From: a virus
Direction: 5' to 3' (one strand)
DNA: 30,580 bases
IMG/VR virus record: IMGVR_UViG_3300047409_000325
Coordinates: 1 to 30,580 of that record
Position numbers and translations under genes: made by a program. The notes under the pieces were generated by a model. That model was not told where the DNA came from. It was given only the letters and a program-made list of their open reading frames with translations, and did no database searches. This document shows positions 68-30,541 of the stretch, in pieces. The stretch's first letter is position 1; each line of letters opens with the position of its first letter.

Positions 68-478
68 TCAGCATTGATTCTCGAATCGCCACGGTTGCGC
101 ATACGTGCCGACCAACAACAACGACCAGCAATCCGCACCGAGGAGATCGACTCGATGTTTCGTCTCGGGATCGAGCACGTTCAGATCACCAGGCCGACAC
201 TCACGCGCCACCACACCACTCGGTGTGCACCGTTCCTCTCGGTACCCACCCACCAGAATCAGGCTGACTGCGGAGGCCCACGGATGCGAGTGCACCTGTG
301 GCCCATCCGAGGCGACGAAGTGGTGGAGGAACAACGCCGGACCAGCACGACGGGTAATCGGATTCCAGCCGGCCACGTAGTACCGCTCGAGATACGGCTG
401 CTGGTCCCGCTGGATGTGTTCCACCTGGAGGGTCCGGGCGATCGCCTCGCACCAGCGACGCGCGATCGGTTCGTTCAT
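68..478 (-). CDS. Cupin-fold protein
   Basis: A 136-residue protein with a single cupin-like beta barrel. The first metal-site motif is visible as VHSHPW followed by LILVGGYREER, and a second histidine follows in PGDLNVLDPETKHRV. Small cupins with this His-x-His-Pro-Trp pattern occur in phages and prophages, but their substrate is not known to me. The ATG at 478 overlaps the HNH gene stop as ATGA, which decides the start over an ATG nine bases upstream. It is the last gene of the early operon in this window. If the ends are contiguous, the large terminase gene follows about 106 bases later. A role as a small-molecule enzyme or structural barrel is open. Confidence 0.7.
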   Translation of the reverse strand: MNEPIARRWCEAIARTLQVEHIQRDQQPYLERYYVAGWNPITRRAGPALFLHHFVASDGPQVHSHPWASAVSLILVGGYREERCTPSGVVARECRPGDLNVLDPETKHRVDLLGADCWSLLLVGTYAQPWRFENQC

Positions 479-801
479 GATCGCCACCGTTGGATGCCGC
501 GTTGCGCTTCCTGTTGCGATTTGCGCTCGTGGCAGCGGTCACAGAGGGCCTGCGTGTTCGACTCGACATCGAGGCCACCTTCCCCGAGCGGGACGATGTG
601 ATCGCGACACGTGGCGACGTTTCGTTTACAGACCGCACAAAACGGTTGCCGACGAAAGAGCTGATGCCGCAGTTGTTGCAACCGTCGGCCACGAATCCGC
701 TCGGCCGGATGATCGTGGTCGAACATCGGCTGCTGGCGGACGTGCACCGTACAGCCGGCGCGGCCACACGTCGCACACGCGCGCGGCGGGGCCATCGGCA
801 T
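475..801 (-). CDS. HNH endonuclease
   Basis: A 108-residue HNH nuclease. The core is in the C-terminal half: a CAVC zinc pair, the DHIVPLGEGG catalytic His segment, an Asn in ESNTQALC, and a second zinc pair CDRCHERK. An N-terminal CATC/C cluster and an HDH motif may form an extra zinc knuckle. In HK97-type cos phages an HNH protein sits next to the terminase and is needed for cos cleavage; its position here, one gene from the window end that would meet terL on circularisation, fits that role. The ATG at 801 shares its A with the preceding TGA (TGATG), favouring this start over one at 825. Confidence 0.85.
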   Translation of the reverse strand: MPMAPPRACATCGRAGCTVHVRQQPMFDHDHPAERIRGRRLQQLRHQLFRRQPFCAVCKRNVATCRDHIVPLGEGGLDVESNTQALCDRCHERKSQQEAQRGIQRWRS

Positions 802-917
802 CAGCGGCGCCTCCGATATTTCCACTCAATCCACGCGATAGAGCCCACGGCATACACCGTCGGTACGCCGAATCCGATCCCGGCGCAGACCCAGAACAAT
901 CGCCAACCCCAATTCAC
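801..917 (-). CDS. Tiny single-span membrane protein
   Basis: A 38-codon gene starting at GTG. It encodes an aromatic-rich hydrophobic helix (NWGWRLFWVCAG then VPTVYAVGSIAWI) followed by a basic tail KYRRRR. AAGGAG precedes the GTG, which overlaps the upstream stop as GTGA, and its own TGA overlaps the HNH start as TGATG. The overlaps on both sides and the ribosome binding site argue that it is translated. The predicted topology is N-terminus out with the basic tail in the cytoplasm. Function is unknown; it is the wrong place for a lysis gene, so exclusion or membrane tethering are guesses. Confidence 0.6.
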   Translation of the reverse strand: MNWGWRLFWVCAGIGFGVPTVYAVGSIAWIEWKYRRRR

Positions 918-7063: not shown

Positions 7064-7279
7064 TTAGGCGCGTTTCCGTTCGACGCGGGACCGTTCGATC
7101 GCAGACCCGTGGCCGCGCAGCCAGGCGTCGAGCTCGCGGGTGTCGAACCGGTAGTGCCGGCCGAGCCGGCAGAACGGCAGGTGGTGCTCGGCGATCATCC
7201 AGCGCAGCGCCCGGGTGGACCCCAGGCGCAGGTACTCGGTGGCTTCCTTCGTCGTGAGGTACGGACTCGTCAGGCTCAT
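7064..7279 (-). CDS. Excisionase/MerR-type helix-turn-helix protein
   Basis: A 71-residue protein of the HTH_17 (DNA-binding, excisionase-like) family: YLTTKEATEYLRLGS gives the helix-turn-helix, followed by LPFCRLGRHYRFDTRELDAWL, a near-textbook wing. Members act as recombination directionality factors or regulators. Being second gene of the early operon, it would be made on induction, when excision is needed. The ATG overlaps the Cro-like gene stop (ATGA). The 43 bases before the next gene hold its ribosome binding site only. Confidence 0.85.
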   Translation of the reverse strand: MSLTSPYLTTKEATEYLRLGSTRALRWMIAEHHLPFCRLGRHYRFDTRELDAWLRGHGSAIERSRVERKRA

Positions 7280-7485
7280 GCCGCATCCCCTTCCACAGGA
7301 TCGACCGGGAATAGCTCCTCTGCTGTCACGTTGAGCGCCCGCGCGATGCGGACCGCGGAGTCATGCCGCAGGCCGCTGCGTTCCCCATGTTCCAGGCGAG
7401 AAATCAGCGAATCGTCGACCCCTGCGCGTTTGGCGAGTTCGTGTTGCGTGATTCGCGCAATCTTCCGGGCGGTCTTGAGATTCAT
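7276..7485 (-). CDS. Cro-like HTH regulator
   Basis: A 69-residue HTH_3/XRE-type protein. The HTH lies at about residues 11-32 (ITQHELAKRAGVDDSLISRLEHG), with a helical remainder and no dimerisation or protease domain. As the first gene of the lytic (minus) operon, divergent from a larger repressor, it is placed like Cro. Its promoter leaves a leader of only about 11 bases without a clear Shine-Dalgarno sequence. Confidence 0.85.
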   Translation of the reverse strand: MNLKTARKIARITQHELAKRAGVDDSLISRLEHGERSGLRHDSAVRIARALNVTAEELFPVDPVEGDAA

Positions 7486-7575: not shown

Positions 7576-8169
7576 ATGAAACTGGTTAGCCTTGACGCCG
7601 CGCGACTCACTCTGAAGAATCGGAGTGTGAACAAGCCGAACTTGGCCGAGACGATCCGCACCGCGCGCGCCAAACAGCGCTTAACGCGCAAAGCGTTTGC
7701 GGCGCACGCCGGCATCACGACCAACACGTTGCGCGCGCTCGAAAACGGCACGCACGCACGCCTGCCCGACGTGCTGACGTTGCAGAAAGTCGCCGAGGCG
7801 CTCGAGCTCTCAGTCGACCAGTTGCTCGCGGGCGAGTCGCAACCGCAGGAACAGGCGGGCTTGCACAAGGAAGACTGGCGGATTGCGCGGGCCTATCACG
7901 ACTCGATCGCCGACGTGAAGGCGGCCGTGAAAGCGCTATTGACTGGCGACCATCAGGAAGACGCGCTCGAGCAGATCGCCGCCGTGCTCCAGCACCTCTT
8001 GCGCTTGGATCCGCAGCTGCGCGCGGACGTCGTCGCGATGACCACGATCGCCGCGACCGACGCACCGGGGATGGCGCTGCTGCACGATTGGATGCGGGAA
8101 AAACTGCAGCCGGCGCAAGAGACGCCGCAGCCGCGGCGGAATCTCAAGCGCCGTCGTGGGACTGAATGA
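7576..8169 (+). CDS. CI-like phage repressor (HTH, no protease domain)
   Basis: A 197-residue protein with an XRE-type HTH domain at about residues 23-85 (the turn spans KAFAAHAGITTNTLRALENG), then an acidic linker and a helical C-terminal domain rich in Leu/Ala (EQIAAVLQHLLRLDPQLRADVVAM), ending in a basic tail. There is no LexA-type serine protease domain, so induction is probably not by RecA-stimulated self-cleavage. It diverges from the Cro-like gene and is the natural lysogeny repressor. An in-frame GTG at 7627 is an alternative start because no strong Shine-Dalgarno precedes the ATG. Confidence 0.8.
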   Translation: MKLVSLDAARLTLKNRSVNKPNLAETIRTARAKQRLTRKAFAAHAGITTNTLRALENGTHARLPDVLTLQKVAEALELSVDQLLAGESQPQEQAGLHKEDWRIARAYHDSIADVKAAVKALLTGDHQEDALEQIAAVLQHLLRLDPQLRADVVAMTTIAATDAPGMALLHDWMREKLQPAQETPQPRRNLKRRRGTE

Positions 8170-8439: not shown

Positions 8440-8694
8440 GTGCGTATCCAGTTCGACCCGGCGAAGGACGCGAGCAACCGAGCCAAGCACGGCGTGTCGC
8501 TCGCGTTGGCCGAACAGTTTGATTGGGCGGGCCCGATCCAGCCCGCGCGCACCGTCGGCGGGGAATTACGGTGGAAGCTGCTCGCGGTGCTCGCGGGCGT
8601 CGTCTATGCCGTGATCTTCACACGCCGCGCCGACGACGTGTTTTGGATTATCAGCCTGCGGCGGGCCAGCCGCAGAGAGAGGCGGGCGCTATGA
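8440..8694 (+). CDS. brnT: BrnT-family toxin
   Basis: An 84-residue protein with the BrnT signature: RIQFDPAKDASNRAKHGVSL at the N-terminus, then VVYAVIFTRRADDVFWIISLRRASRRER, the conserved beta strands and the catalytic-type Arg-rich ISxRxAxxxE ending. BrnT toxins are RelE-like ribonucleases that stop translation. The start is GTG, supported by the family N-terminus and the promoter position. Its TGA overlaps the antitoxin ATG (ATGA), the usual toxin-first BrnTA order. Placed between repressor and integrase, it would be expressed in the lysogen. Confidence 0.85.
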   Translation: MRIQFDPAKDASNRAKHGVSLALAEQFDWAGPIQPARTVGGELRWKLLAVLAGVVYAVIFTRRADDVFWIISLRRASRRERRAL

Positions 8695-9005
8695 AAGGAC
8701 AGCAGGAATACGGCGTACCTGACGCCGAGAACCCGGAATGGACGGCCGAGGAAATTCGCACGGCGAAAACGTTCGAGGACGTATTCCCCGACGTGGTGCG
8801 CCGCGGCCGCGGGCCGCAGAAGGCCCCGACGAAACAGATCATCAGTATTCGGCTCGATGTCGACGTGCTCGAGAAGTTCCGCGCGACGGGCAAGGGCTGG
8901 CAGAGCCGGATCAACGACGTCCTCACCAAGCACGCGCCGCGCCGCGGCCGCCGGGCGACGAAGGCGACACGCACGCGCGCGAAGCGCCAGGGAGCTCGGT
9001 CATGA
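8691..9005 (+). CDS. brnA: BrnA-family antitoxin (RHH)
   Basis: A 104-residue protein. The N-terminal half carries the toxin-neutralising region (EWTAEEIRTAKTFEDVFPDV), followed by a ribbon-helix-helix DNA-binding domain at about residues 48-80 (KQIISIRLDVDVLEKFRATG then GWQSRINDVLTK), the BrnA layout. The C-terminal tail is unusually basic (RRGRRATKATRTRAKRQ). It overlaps brnT and the next gene by four bases each. It should bind BrnT and repress the shared promoter. Confidence 0.85.
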   Translation: MKGQQEYGVPDAENPEWTAEEIRTAKTFEDVFPDVVRRGRGPQKAPTKQIISIRLDVDVLEKFRATGKGWQSRINDVLTKHAPRRGRRATKATRTRAKRQGARS

Positions 9006-9471: not shown

Positions 9472-10533
9472 ATGGGCGTCTACGCACGGAAAGACTCACC
9501 GTTCTGGTGGTATCAGGTCGAGGGGACGAAACAACGCACGAAGACCGAGTTTCGCGTCGGCTCGACCAGCACCGAGCGGAAGGACAGTAAGAAACTCGCC
9601 GAGGCCGTGTATCTGCGCGCGCAAACGGCGCACGCCACGCGCCGGCACCGGCTCCCGATGCCGCTGCAGGAGAGCCTGTTCAAGGCGTACGCGAAAGCCT
9701 ACGAGCCCACCCTCGCGGGCCATCGCGGCGCCGATCGCGAGCGCGAGCTGCTCAAGCCCCTGCTCGCCTTCTTCGGCACGATCCCGTTGACCGCGATCGA
9801 CCGGGACTTCGTCAGTCGCTACCTACAGCATCGCCTCAAGGCCGGCGTCGCGGCGAGCACCGCGAACCGGGAAGTCGATCTGCTCAAGATCATGCTGCGC
9901 GATGCGGCCCCGAAGTATCTGGACGTGTCGCCGCTGGTCGGCATGAAGCGCCTGAAGAGCGCGGCCCGGCGGCGCCGCACGTTGAGCCACGCCGAAGAGA
10001 CGCGCCTCCTGACGGTCGCCACGGACCCGCAGGACCACGCGCTGCTCGTGCTGGGGATTGACACCCTCGTCCGCCTCGGCGACCTCCTGGACGTCCAGCG
10101 GGGCGACCGGGAAGGCATCTGGCTCGACATCCGCCACACCAAGAACGGCGAGGCCCTCCGCGTGCCGCTGACCGCGCGGGCCGAACAGGCCCTCGACGCG
10201 ATCCCGGACACCGGCCCGTACTACTTCGCGAAGTTCCGCCGCGCCGAAAACCCGCGCGACTGGCGGAGCTCCGTGAATCAGCGGCTGCAGTACCTCTGTG
10301 CCCGCTGCACCCCGCCGGTCCCGTTCGGGCTCAAGGCCGGGGTGACGTTCCACGGCGCCACCCGGAAGACGGGCGCCACCCGCCTGGCCGTCGAGCAGCG
10401 CCAGCCGCTGTCGGCCGTGCAGCGCCTGGGCGGCTGGAAGGATCCGACGATGCTCATCAGCATCTACAACGAGGCCGACGAACACGCCCTCCTGAAGCTC
10501 GTCGGGCGCACGCCCAAACGTAAACGCGCCTGA
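9472..10533 (+). CDS. int: Tyrosine-family phage integrase
   Basis: A 353-residue integrase. It has an N-terminal arm-binding part (MGVYARKDSPFWWYQVEG), a core-binding SAM-like domain at about residues 65-160, and a catalytic domain from 165. Catalytic residues seen: Arg201 (TLVRLGDLL), Lys224 (HTKNG), His294/Arg298 (TFHGATRKTGATR), Trp322 (GGWKDPT, Trp where most have His, as in Cre), Tyr332 (ISIYNEA). The HxxR box has one extra residue and Lys where the usual second His stands. GAAGGAA precedes the ATG at 9472; an upstream in-frame start would run into the previous gene. attP follows directly. Confidence 0.93.
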   Translation: MGVYARKDSPFWWYQVEGTKQRTKTEFRVGSTSTERKDSKKLAEAVYLRAQTAHATRRHRLPMPLQESLFKAYAKAYEPTLAGHRGADRERELLKPLLAFFGTIPLTAIDRDFVSRYLQHRLKAGVAASTANREVDLLKIMLRDAAPKYLDVSPLVGMKRLKSAARRRRTLSHAEETRLLTVATDPQDHALLVLGIDTLVRLGDLLDVQRGDREGIWLDIRHTKNGEALRVPLTARAEQALDAIPDTGPYYFAKFRRAENPRDWRSSVNQRLQYLCARCTPPVPFGLKAGVTFHGATRKTGATRLAVEQRQPLSAVQRLGGWKDPTMLISIYNEADEHALLKLVGRTPKRKRA

Positions 10534-10537
10534 AAAA

Positions 10538-10577
10538 ATTGGGAGCCCGGTCCCGGCCAAAGTGTCGGGTTCCCAAT
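10538..10577 (-). terminator. Rho-independent terminator of the late operon
   Basis: ATTGGGAGCCCG (10538-10549) pairs with CGGGTTCCCAAT (10566-10577) over 12 bp with one G-U pair. On the minus strand the stem is followed by TTTTTT. It therefore stops transcription coming from the late genes before it runs antisense into int. It has no T run in the plus direction. Confidence 0.75.
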
Positions 10578-10592
10578 CACGCTGCAATCACG
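10570..10592. repeat. Arm-type integrase site, copy 1
   Basis: TTCCCAATCACGCTGCAATCACG matches 10801-10823 at 21 of 23 bases. It contains CAATCACG twice, 11 bp apart (10574-10581, 10585-10592), about one helical turn. Its first bases are shared with the terminator stem. Confidence 0.6.
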
Positions 10593-10644
10593 ATCGCCTC
10601 GGAAATCGCGAAAATCCCTGAGCAAACCCGGCGGCAGGTTCGCC

Positions 10645-10689
10645 TTCGCAACGCGGAGGTCAGGAGTTCGATCCTCCTGTCGTCCACCA
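10645..10689 (+). other. attP core: 3' half of a tRNA-Ala(CGC)-like gene
   Basis: From the anticodon loop TTCGCAA (10645-10651, anticodon CGC, U33, A37) through the 3' anticodon strand CGCGG, variable loop AGGTC, T arm AGGAG-TTCGATC-CTCCT, acceptor strand GTCGTCC, A73 and CCA (10687-10689). No 5' half exists upstream: the matching acceptor and D arm are absent and the 5' anticodon strand pairs imperfectly. U70 and A73 suit tRNA-Ala. Phages carry such 3' halves so that the tRNA is rebuilt on integration. Confidence 0.75.
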
Positions 10690-10800
10690 ACAAAAACACT
10701 GAGAAAACTCAATAAAATAGGCCGAAAACGCGAGAACTGGACCATTTCATGGCGCGAGCTCAAGCGACGCTAAGTGACGCCTAAAGGGACGAAAAGGGGA

Positions 10801-10823
10801 TTCTCAATCACGCTCCAATCACG
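10801..10823. repeat. Arm-type integrase site, copy 2
   Basis: TTCTCAATCACGCTCCAATCACG, again with two CAATCACG units 11 bp apart (10805-10812, 10816-10823). It lies on the opposite side of the tRNA core from copy 1 and in the same orientation. Confidence 0.6.
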
Positions 10824-10853
10824 GCAGGTTAACCATAATGGCGGAGGGGTCCG

Positions 10854-23765: not shown

Positions 23766-24379
23766 CACCGCCGCCTCGTGTCGTCGTAGACCTGTTGCCA
23801 GTCTTTGCCGGCCGGCCCGGGCGGACCCTGGACGCCATGCTTGCCGTCGACGCCGCGTTTGCCGTCCCGGAGCAACAGCATCCAGCAGTCTTTGCCCTGC
23901 GGCCCGGCGGCGCGGCCGTGCTCGAACGTCCCGCCGTCCGGCGCCAGGGCCGTCGCCGTCTGGCAATGCCAGAGCGCGCTCTTGTACCGGACGATATTGC
24001 CGGGCGTGTACCCGCGGCCGGCGTCGAAATCCCCGACGAACGTCCCGACCGGGAACGTCACCGTCCCGATCGTTTTGATCACGTCGCCGCGGATGGCCTT
24101 GAGCGTCACGGTCGTCGCGTCGAGTTGCTCGAGCGCGAGGTCGTCGAACCCGACGCCGTCGACGCCGTCGCGGCCGGCGGGACCGGTTGGACCGGGGACG
24201 GGCGCGCGCGTTTCCAGCACGGCCAGGCGTTCCCGCATCGTGCCGAGGTCGGTCACGGCGCCCGCGAGGCCCTCGAGCCGGGTATCGGTGACCGCCAGAC
24301 GCGCCAGGACCGGCGCCAGGGCGGTCTGCATCGAGTCCAGGACGAGATCGGCGAGGGCGTCGGCGTCAGGCGGCGGCAT
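23765..24379 (-). CDS. Collagen-like virion protein with sugar-binding-type module
   Basis: A 204-residue protein. A helical N-terminus (residues 8-58) leads to collagen-like Gly-x-y (GPTGPAGRDGVDGVG, 63-77). A module at 110-160 (YTPGNIVRYKSALWHCQT, then DGGTFEHG) resembles the small carbohydrate-binding modules common beside portal genes. A second Gly-x-y run follows (GKRGVDGKHGVQGPPGPAGK, 173-192). It overlaps the portal gene by 14 bases. Likely a trimeric surface decoration; the sugar-binding reading rests on pattern. Confidence 0.7.
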   Translation of the reverse strand: MPPPDADALADLVLDSMQTALAPVLARLAVTDTRLEGLAGAVTDLGTMRERLAVLETRAPVPGPTGPAGRDGVDGVGFDDLALEQLDATTVTLKAIRGDVIKTIGTVTFPVGTFVGDFDAGRGYTPGNIVRYKSALWHCQTATALAPDGGTFEHGRAAGPQGKDCWMLLLRDGKRGVDGKHGVQGPPGPAGKDWQQVYDDTRRR

Positions 24380-25799
24380 GGGTCCACCGTTCACGCGCCT
24401 TGCGGCGAAGGGCCAGACCGAACGCGGCGAGGAAGTCCGGCTCGATCGATTGACTGATGGCCGGGGCGGCGACCGGCGCCGGCCGCGGTTTGGCAAACGG
24501 ATCGTTGGCGTCGCGGGTCGCCAGGGCCTCGAGGCTGAACATCTGCTGCTGCATGTACGGCGTATTGCCGCCTTTTACCCGGCCGAGGCCGAAGTACTTC
24601 CGGCGCGCTTCATCGGGCGACATGCCGCCGCCGCCGATGCCGTCCTTCGCCGCGGCGGTCTTCGTCGCCGTGTCCATCCAGATGAGATCGTCGATGTCGA
24701 ATTCCGTGCCGTACTGCCGGCCGTCCGGCAACGGATCGAGAATGCCGAGGCCGTCGTCGAGGCTGGTTTCGAAATTCGTCATCAGCGACTGCAGGCATTG
24801 CGCGAGGTACTGCTGGAGCATTGGTTCGACGTTGGCGTACGGCGGCGGCGGCCCGACGCCAATCATGTACGGCTGGACGTGGTAACAGCTGCAAACCGTT
24901 TCGGCCGTCCATTTCAGTTGGTCAATCAACTGTGCGTCAACGGCATTCATCGTCAGCGGTTGGTATTTCAGGTCGCCCGTGATCGCCGCGATCTTGCCGG
25001 CATTTTCGACGCCGTTGCTGGCGTCCCAGTTCGTTTTGACGTCGGCGAGCTGTTCCTTGGTCATGCCGACCGGCCCGATGAGGAGCGCGCTCGGCCGGCT
25101 GCCGTTGGCGAAGAACTGGCCCGAGGCGTTCTGGATCGCCAGGCCCTGCATCGCGGCGAGGCCGCACGCGAAGATCGGGGACACGCCCACGAGCGGATGG
25201 AACAGGCAAATCATTTTGTCGTGGATGATTTCCCGCGCCGGGACGATGATCGCATCGGTCGGCAAACCGGCGAGGTCGCCCGACAAATCATCCCGCCGCA
25301 ATTCGTAGTACACGCCACCATCCGGCGCGACCAGCGGTTTGACGCGCGACGGATCGAGCACATACAACGCCACGACGACGCCGCGCGCGTCGCGCTGCTT
25401 CAGGACGTACGTGTTGCCCCAAATCAATTTGGAACTGATCCAGTGCTCGACGAATTTATTGATCGTCTGGTAGCGGTTCGGTTTGCGGAGGACGGGCGAG
25501 AACGCCGGCGATGACGTCGGCTGCCAGATGTCCTCGTCGGTCCGTTCGACAAGTTGCAGACACAGCTTGCCGATATCCGAGGCGATGAGCGTCACGCAGG
25601 AAAAGACCGCCGAGTACGCGAGCGCCAGGTCGCGCCGGCCTTCGACGTTGACCTGCCACGCGCCGGCATACGGTTCGCGGACGACGAGCGGAAACCAGCC
25701 GCCGCGCGTGCTGTCGAGGCCATTGGGCGCCGTCAGCGGCGCGGCTTTCGCGCTCAACTCGAGCGATCGCCCGAACAGGTGCACTCGGACCGCCGCCAT
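24366..25799 (-). CDS. Portal protein (HK97 family)
   Basis: A 477-residue protein. It has the phage portal (HK97) pattern: AYSAVFSCVTLIASDIGKL, WISSKLIWGNTYVLKQRD, VVALYVLDPSRVKPL, IIHDKMICLFHPLVGVSPI, FFANGSRPSALLI and AETVCSCYHVQPYMIG. It forms the dodecameric DNA channel. It lies downstream of the capsid gene, unlike the usual order. Confidence 0.93.
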   Translation of the reverse strand: MAAVRVHLFGRSLELSAKAAPLTAPNGLDSTRGGWFPLVVREPYAGAWQVNVEGRRDLALAYSAVFSCVTLIASDIGKLCLQLVERTDEDIWQPTSSPAFSPVLRKPNRYQTINKFVEHWISSKLIWGNTYVLKQRDARGVVVALYVLDPSRVKPLVAPDGGVYYELRRDDLSGDLAGLPTDAIIVPAREIIHDKMICLFHPLVGVSPIFACGLAAMQGLAIQNASGQFFANGSRPSALLIGPVGMTKEQLADVKTNWDASNGVENAGKIAAITGDLKYQPLTMNAVDAQLIDQLKWTAETVCSCYHVQPYMIGVGPPPPYANVEPMLQQYLAQCLQSLMTNFETSLDDGLGILDPLPDGRQYGTEFDIDDLIWMDTATKTAAAKDGIGGGGMSPDEARRKYFGLGRVKGGNTPYMQQQMFSLEALATRDANDPFAKPRPAPVAAPAISQSIEPDFLAAFGLALRRKARERWTHAAA

Positions 25800-28702: not shown

Positions 28703-30541
28703 TCAGCCCAGGACCATCATCGAATACGTCGGCGGCGCCGCGACCGGCGTCAGCATGGCACTCATCGCTTGCAGAATCGCGTCGATCCCGTCGATCTTGT
28801 TCGGCGATTCCGGGCCCTCTTTCTTCGGCAGGATCGAATCATCCACGCCACGCGTGACGACGACGTTACTCGCCATCCACTTGAGGCACGGGTTCCCGTC
28901 GTGCCGGAACCGGTGATGCTTCACGCGCGCCTCGAGCTCGCGTGCCGGCGGCGTAAACGACTTGCGCGACTTGTCGAGAATCGCCGCCGGGAATCCATCA
29001 CCGGCCAGGCTCGAGACGATGCCGGCCGAGCCGTACTGGTCGAACCGCAGGGCCGCGACACTGAACTGCCGACACCAGGCGCGCACGTCGGCCTCGATCC
29101 GCCCGTAGTCGATCATCGTGCCGTCGGTCATCTCGAGGATTCCAGCCTTCACCCAACCCAGATACGCGGGCACCGTGCGCGCGCGTTCGGCGACGACGTC
29201 CCGCGGCAGATAGCACTTCACGAACGCCACGATGTCGCCGGCCCGCTCGAACAACAACGCGACGGCCGCGAGGTCGTCGGTCTGCGCCAGGTCGCCCCCG
29301 AGCCAGCACCGCTGCCCGGCGAAGTCCTCGAGGCGCAGCGTCTCGTCCGCGCACGCATCCCACCGCGCCATCGACAGCCACGCTTTGGCGCTCTGCAACC
29401 ATTCCGAACAGACCTTGACGCGGAATTCCCCCTCGAGGCCGGGCGTCAACTGCGCGTCCGCGCAATACGCCTGCACCCACTCGCGCGTCGGCGTCACGCC
29501 GATCATCGGGTTCGCCTTCTCCCAGACCCGCGCGTCGCGCCAGTCGTCGCCGTCATCGAGCGTGTAGATCAGCCCGAAGAAATGCTCGGCGTCGAACACC
29601 TGTTGCAGCACTTTCGTGAGCGTCGTGCGCAAGGCGTAGCCGACCGACAGCAGGTCGTACCCGGCCGTCGTCGGACAGAGCATCAGCGGATTGATGCGCG
29701 CGCCCTGCGCGGATTTCAACACGTCATGCAACGCGAACTTCTGGGCGTGACTCTCGTCGAGCACGATGCAGCTCGGGTTCAGCCCGTCCTGCGTCGACGC
29801 CTTCGCATTGACGGGCTTGATCGAGCCGTCCACGGTCACGATGGCGTTGGCGAGCGCCTGCAAGCCCTGCCCGCGCAACCAGGGGGACCGGGCGACCATC
29901 CGCTGGGCAATGCCGAACACAATCCGCGCCTGGCTGCCCGTCGTCGCCCCGCAGACGACCGAGGCGCCAGGCTCGTGTTCCTTCAGCACGTGAAACAGCG
30001 CGATGCCCGCCATCAGCGTCGACTTCGCCGCCTTGCGCCCGATCTCCAGATACCAGGTCGTGAACCGCCGACGCGCCAGGTGCGCCCGATGCCGCCACCC
30101 GAATAGGCACGAGACCCAGAACACCTGGCACGGCGCGAGCCCGATCGTCTCGGTCGCCCAGCGCCCCTCGACGTGCGGCAGGCGCTCGAGGAACGCGCAG
30201 GCCTCCATCGCGTGCGCGTCGCTCCACACATACGGCCAGGTCGGATCCGTCGCCGCCCGCATCGCGTCCCGGTCCTGCCGTTCACAGGCGAGCTTCACCC
30301 ACTGACACGCAGGAATTTTGCCGCTGAGGACATCGGCCCGGTACTGCTGCGCGACCTGCCCGTAATCCTGTCCGGATGTCCCCGGCACCGGGATCGGACG
30401 CTTGCGCGACCGTCGGCCGACCCGTTGCTTTCCCGCCTGGAAGGTCCCGCGCCGCGCCTTCTCGGCGTCGCTCACCCGCGGGCGCCCGACGCGCCGCTTC
30501 GTGCGCTTCGTTTGCTTCTTCCGCCGCGCCTTCACGGGCAT
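28703..30541 (-). CDS. terL: Terminase large subunit
   Basis: A 612-residue protein. Walker A at 168-175 (GRKAAKST), Walker B at 258-263 (CIVLDE), nuclease acidic residues in WLGGDLAQTDDLAAV and NKIDGIDAIL. It packages DNA into proheads with the portal. The first 60 residues are very basic with a GRPRVSDAEKAR segment resembling the start of P27-type small terminases. No separate small subunit precedes it in the window. It is the first gene of the late operon. Confidence 0.93.
   Translation of the reverse strand: MPVKARRKKQTKRTKRRVGRPRVSDAEKARRGTFQAGKQRVGRRSRKRPIPVPGTSGQDYGQVAQQYRADVLSGKIPACQWVKLACERQDRDAMRAATDPTWPYVWSDAHAMEACAFLERLPHVEGRWATETIGLAPCQVFWVSCLFGWRHRAHLARRRFTTWYLEIGRKAAKSTLMAGIALFHVLKEHEPGASVVCGATTGSQARIVFGIAQRMVARSPWLRGQGLQALANAIVTVDGSIKPVNAKASTQDGLNPSCIVLDESHAQKFALHDVLKSAQGARINPLMLCPTTAGYDLLSVGYALRTTLTKVLQQVFDAEHFFGLIYTLDDGDDWRDARVWEKANPMIGVTPTREWVQAYCADAQLTPGLEGEFRVKVCSEWLQSAKAWLSMARWDACADETLRLEDFAGQRCWLGGDLAQTDDLAAVALLFERAGDIVAFVKCYLPRDVVAERARTVPAYLGWVKAGILEMTDGTMIDYGRIEADVRAWCRQFSVAALRFDQYGSAGIVSSLAGDGFPAAILDKSRKSFTPPARELEARVKHHRFRHDGNPCLKWMASNVVVTRGVDDSILPKKEGPESPNKIDGIDAILQAMSAMLTPVAAPPTYSMMVLG

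Follow-up and report, generated by a model that had tools for sequence, protein, structure and literature searches.

A predicted attP with paired, directly repeated arm sites beside a tRNA-Ala(CGC) half in a likely Acidobacteriota phage

What does the 3' half of a tRNA gene signify when it lies beside an integrase gene, between short repeats, in the middle of a phage map? The window analyzed here is the whole of an IMG/VR virus record of 30,580 bp (65.9% G+C), in which the tRNA half (the core) sits between int and the structural genes: int, the repressor, and early genes are to its left, and genes running from tail to terminase are to its right (Table 1). The first-pass annotation had described a single tRNA 3' half beside int with phage genes on both sides, and the positions agree, int ending at 10533 and the half spanning 10645-10689. 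Very probably, the stretch serves a temperate tailed soil phage of Acidobacteriota as its attP, present here in non-integrated DNA, and is where the integrase would bridge the core and helically phased arm sites. Megablast against phage GenBank records returned no match to the window, and an Rfam search gave no matches.

Table 1. Features of the attachment locus and of the surrounding phage genome (window coordinates)
Feature	Coordinates	Strand	Basis or remarks
Excisionase-family HTH protein, RDF candidate	7064..7279	-	TIGR01764, 49.1 bits (cut-off 28.8); phrog_66
Small HTH protein	7276-7485	-	PHROG repressors
Cro/CI-type repressor	7576..8169	+	Pfam HTH_3; divergent from small HTH gene
int, tyrosine integrase, ~353 aa	9472..10533	+	Pfam PF00589; PHROG phrog_1 integrase, E 2.8e-33
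Predicted left arm pair (P'-like), CAATCACG x2	10574..10592	+	11-bp spacing; -71/-60 from anticodon-loop base; placed alike in most relatives
Predicted attP core: 3' half of tRNA-Ala(CGC), anticodon loop to CCA	10645..10689	+	45-nt identity to MAG tRNA
Presumed 7-bp overlap, TTCGCAA	10645-10651	+	Inferred crossover position
CTCAATAAAATAGGCCGAAA element, AATCAATnAAAnnGGGCCGAAA-like	10708..10727	+	Right-arm alignment; present in part of relatives
Degenerate tandem 10-bp repeats, candidate excisionase (RDF) array	10763..10802	+	Beside right arm; window copy weak
Predicted right arm pair (P-like), CAATCACG x2	10805..10823	+	11-bp spacing; +160/+171
Terminase large subunit	28703..30541	-	TerL ATPase plus nuclease; at one end of linear contig

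The core has an exact bacterial counterpart. A scan of 84,980 species in a genome collection, with 43 bases of the tRNA half as the pattern, gave a single exactly matching contig, JAUSDY010000176.1 from an Acidobacteriota metagenome-assembled genome (MAG); a complete tRNA-Ala(CGC) is predicted on it by ARAGORN. Phage and host sequences are identical over exactly 45 nt, from the first anticodon-loop base to the CCA, and ends at both borders; the bacterial tRNA-Ala(CGC) with the same 45 bases that the first-pass annotation had proposed to look for is thus at hand (45/45 nt). Similar tRNA ends with no more than three mismatches at the specified positions occur in 90 of 193 genomes of the host class, a count for which several pattern positions were left free. 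The window's exact tRNA sequence is confined among these 193 to the JAUSDY010000176.1 MAG, which points to a relative of that bacterium as the likely host. The exact 36-mer core is absent from the viral contigs, and 11 of 26 Ala-type cores exactly match a tRNA found in this same class of bacteria. The companion expectation, a prophage of this family at that tRNA, was not borne out: no integrated copy was found in the 193 host-class genomes, where the best integrase is 33% identical, and attL and attR were accordingly not seen. Host-class integrases at tRNA-Ala(CGC), such as those in G488 and G555, were considered as integrated copies and rejected, being distant (31-37%) and without such arm pairs. 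We note that seven host-class genomes (G356, G460, G480, G497, G534, G535, and G310) each have two tRNA-Ala(CGC) 3' ends 1 to 11 kb apart on a contig; these are probably small integrated elements at the same hotspot.

The integrase has the domain plan expected of an arm-binding recombinase, with a predicted arm-binding domain at about residues 1-58, a core-binding domain at 69-144, and a catalytic domain at 172-342. In an AF2 model (pLDDT 89), residues 1-58 form three strands and a helix, followed by a helical core-binding domain and the catalytic domain; the best Foldseek match of the model is full-length lambda Int (1z1b). The two proteins share the overall fold and three-domain plan at about 20% identity in the structural alignment, but the domain arrangement differs, with an rmsd of >13 Å over the whole chain and 3.3 Å over lambda residues 75-356. 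The predicted structure thus suggests a lambda-type (heterobivalent) integrase with an N-terminal arm-binding domain. Catalytic residues R200, K223, H293, R297, and W321 are invariant or nearly so, and Y331 is present. The spacing of Box II is unusual, reading H-x-x-x-R: HGATR in the window (10351-10365, residues 293-297 numbered from 9475; alignment A3) and HWATR or HWGTR in relatives. Most integrases of the tRNA-Ala clade have H-x-x-x-R instead of H-x-x-R, plus one extra residue before the tyrosine, whereas other integrases in the same alignment have the canonical HxxR; L177 reads HGTR.

The motif CAATCACG occurs at 10574, 10585, 10805, and 10816, all four copies on the plus strand. The resulting 19-bp pairs, CAATCACGCTGCAATCACG and CAATCACGCTCCAATCACG, differ by one base, and each lies within one copy of a direct repeat 26 bp long (88% identity). 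A doubled 8-mer, its copies 11 bp apart, that recurs within 400 bp is seen once in the window and in none of 60 dinucleotide-model simulations. The first-pass annotation was correct in placing flanking repeats around the tRNA half, each with the motif twice at 11-bp spacing, but its description of the arms as mirrored is ruled out by the common strand of all four units, which are direct repeats.

A search of viral contigs with the single integrase sequence gave no confirmed relative, and alignment-based searches returned 31 loci with a two-row alignment and 69 with a 14-row alignment. Recognition of the tRNA 3' half through its T-arm and anticodon loop, independently of the arm motif, yielded 29 loci, and arm pairs were scored with a weight matrix free of positional information; the right pair is present at 28 of the 29. 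There are about 36 attP cassettes with paired arms of the form CAnTCmCG-N3-CAnTCmCG around a tRNA 3' half, and their integrases are 33-56% identical to that of the window. The arms themselves led to six cassettes inverted relative to int (L154, L156, L179, L182, L185, and L197), in which the inversion means that the int-bearing prophage end would differ among relatives, and to two more in the usual orientation (L195 and L201). In several relatives the cassette is 0.5-1.6 kb from int, and the arms are still at set distances from the core. Four loci (L147, L149, L151, and L157) have 0.5-1.4 kb between int and core, leaving room for cargo genes. The arm-pair motif has one background match in 738 kb of portal-bearing contigs from other phages of the group. 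No recognizable arms were found at L210, and no left pair at L190 or L200.

The arms do not depend on the identity of the tRNA. Loci L161 and L162/L163 use tRNAs other than tRNA-Ala with the same arm motif, and L162/L163, at a tRNA with a TCT anticodon, have CAATCACG-TGA-CAATCACG on both sides. As the same pairs are kept at a different target, the arm motif, judged from these sequences, goes with the integrase and not with the target. Within a genome, the left and right units match at 14.5 of 16 positions; shuffling of genomes lowers this to 12.4, and none of 20,000 shuffles reaches the observed value. This agreement fits a single protein reading both arms, with kinship contributing. The 45-nt tRNA identity, the layout shared beside related integrases, and the arms that travel with inverted or distant cores together support the first-pass reading of the stretch as the attP of a tyrosine integrase.

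The distances between core and arms fall into discrete classes. Measured from the anticodon loop, the right pair lies at 117, 127-129, 137-139, 147-150, or 158-161, with nothing between (cluster means of 117, 128, 138, 148.5, and 159.5, and differences of 11, 10, 10.5, and 11 bp). With the later-found cassettes included, the classes are at about 107, 117, 128, 138, 148, and 160, in steps of ~10.6 bp. The vector strength is 0.853 at a 10.5-bp period (n = 26), which corresponds to a scatter of about 1 bp, and none of 20,000 uniform draws, which ignore kinship, reaches the highest value obtained for periods of 10 to 11.5 bp. The integrase tree requires at least seven changes of turn class, and the sister integrases L186 and L191 have right-arm distances that differ by 11 bp. 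Five non-overlapping tree contrasts leave residuals from whole turns of 0.4, 2.4, 0.4, -1.6, and -0.2 bp, and with residuals of up to 2.4 bp the whole-turn rule appears good, not perfect. The later-found cassettes have the right arm at 160, 160, 160, 147, and 107, and in seven of seven, L185 left out, the arm-to-arm separation deviates from the earlier lattice by no more than 2 bp. Locus L185 (1242-1916) departs from the lattice: its core and right arm are separated by ~427 bp more than in its near relatives, perhaps an insertion element or an assembly error. For the left pair, most relatives have a distance of -68 to -72, L162 one of -82, and L196 one of -59.

The 50 bp before the right pair have a periodicity of their own, with a lag-10 self-identity of 0.489 versus 0.275 in shuffled sequence (26 attPs) and a lag-20 self-identity of 0.440. 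Many relatives have a clear 10-bp array of this kind, the window a weak one; it is possibly an excisionase site, for which the window encodes a candidate protein. The MerR-like protein BldC, which resembles Xis in structure, binds head-to-tail on 9-bp direct repeats, and on longer sites its subunits are about one turn apart (PMC5859096, PMC11963761). The CTCAATAAAATAGGCCGAAA element is a possible candidate site for a host bending protein. Elsewhere in the window, a BrnT-type toxin gene (8440-8694, plus strand) and an antitoxin-family (BrnA-like) gene (8691-9005, plus strand) lie between the repressor and int, and a protein encoded at 478-825 (minus strand), upstream of the terminase and with a weak match to the IscB nuclease part, is most likely an ordinary phage HNH protein.

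In which form was the DNA sequenced? The window has no terminal repeat; the counterparts of its two ends are close together in the circular relatives G404 and G409, so that the window apparently represents nearly a whole genome. An ARAGORN search of the window detects no complete tRNA. Relative G398 (IMGVR_UViG_3300045303_000166; 30,112 bp) was assembled as a circle, as its 127-bp terminal repeat indicates; its integrase shares 51% identity with that of the window, and a tRNA-Ala(CGC) half lies inside its map, with the left pair at -71/-60 as in the window and the right pair at +148/+159. Arms on both sides of the core, the absence of an intact tRNA, and the circular G398 with a matching internal site support non-integrated phage DNA, as the first-pass annotation had argued from the internal position of the site; virions, excised circles, or replicating concatemers all fit as the source. 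That the contig is instead a prophage end or part of a tandem prophage array, with the core as attL or attR, might be entertained since a tRNA 3' half also marks attR and the window is without a terminal repeat, but we give this hardly any credence: the core is flanked on both sides by phage genes as well as phage arms, and, while the internal junction of a tandem array can look like attP, nothing points to such an array. Very improbable too is that the CAATCACG pairs are operators for the repressor or for int autoregulation whose closeness to the core merely reflects that of int. They are just downstream of int and near the lysogeny module, and regulation of int by arm sites occurs in known systems, but the six inverted cassettes, and several others 0.5-1.6 kb from int, keep their arms at set core distances, and arm spacing tracks the core in helical steps. 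We also note that the portal (24366-25799) has 393 relatives in viral contigs, most of them without the window's integrase type, and that several full-size (~30 kb) contigs among these are circular.

The lattice could also arise by gain and loss of 10-bp tandem repeats beside the right arm, with no phasing constraint, and slippage in the array that exists there would indeed shift the length in 10-bp steps. We regard this as unlikely, given that the alignment places most length differences by the CCA end, outside the array, and that the left pair, which has no such array, also steps by about 11-12 bp (-59, -70, and -82). We think it probable, with some reserve, that the spacer between core and arms evolves almost exclusively by whole turns, giving five or six length classes, and that the same cassettes have a 10-bp array for an excisionase binding head-to-tail. 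Integration by lambda depends on helical phase, as phasing experiments established; no account of natural helical phasing of attP arms was found in the literature searched.

From the direct results (sequence, conservation, the spacing lattice, arm co-variation, and the predicted fold), we infer protein binding, the crossover position, and the roles of excisionase and helical phase as follows. The integrase from the adjacent upstream gene would bind inverted core sites around the anticodon loop through its core-binding and catalytic domains, and its N-terminal domain would bind the two direct CAATCACG pairs, bridging arms and core. Strand exchange within the TTCGCAA loop would join the phage 3' tRNA half to the host 5' half, rebuilding tRNA-Ala(CGC) at attL, and the displaced host 3' half would end up at attR beside int. 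The arms would need a set helix face toward the core, such that spacers change almost only by whole turns, and binding of a small excisionase-type protein to the 10-bp repeats by the right arm may permit excision.

The attP architecture itself is already known. In lambda, attP has a short arm on the int side and a long arm with excisionase sites opposite, and the window resembles this layout, with its short arm on the int side and candidate excisionase sites in the long arm opposite; the lambda arm sites are, however, not two direct pairs, and its target is not a tRNA. Arm-type repeat pairs flank a tRNA or tmRNA core in mycobacteriophages CrimD, L5, and Giles (PMC3203893); set beside the window by layout, the pairs are direct in L5 and Giles, as here, those of CrimD are mutually inverted, and L5 has extra sites (PMC3203893). 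The helper-embedded phage-inducible chromosomal islands (PICIs) have a doubled motif in attP, in two co-oriented copies 81 bp upstream and 132 bp downstream of the crossover center, for which four integrase arm sites were suggested (PMC10111431). Co-oriented doubled motifs flanking the crossover are thus shared, but the PICIs have the motif TGTATTGC, fixed distances, and prophage late-gene targets, whereas the window's phage family has tRNA-Ala and five or six one-turn spacing classes. In Islander class A, a 3' tRNA fragment in attP restores the gene, with anticodon-centered sites in about half of the islands (PMC4383910); the window differs in being a free phage genome, and its int would fall on the attR side. 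The literature searched contained no account of the Acidobacteriota host group, the arm motif, or the whole-turn spacing classes.

The feature is ordinary in kind and well supported in detail, and the regularity at the level of the family is of interest to recombination specialists. Acidobacteriota are common in soil and difficult to manipulate; for phages of this phylum, the locus supplies an insertion site, a minimal attP-int cassette, and a likely host group, and thereby a route to integration vectors. Some thirty natural attPs keep the helix face of the arms while the length changes by whole turns, and models of the integration complex can be tested directly against them. If the whole-turn reading is true, nature has already run the helical-phasing experiment.
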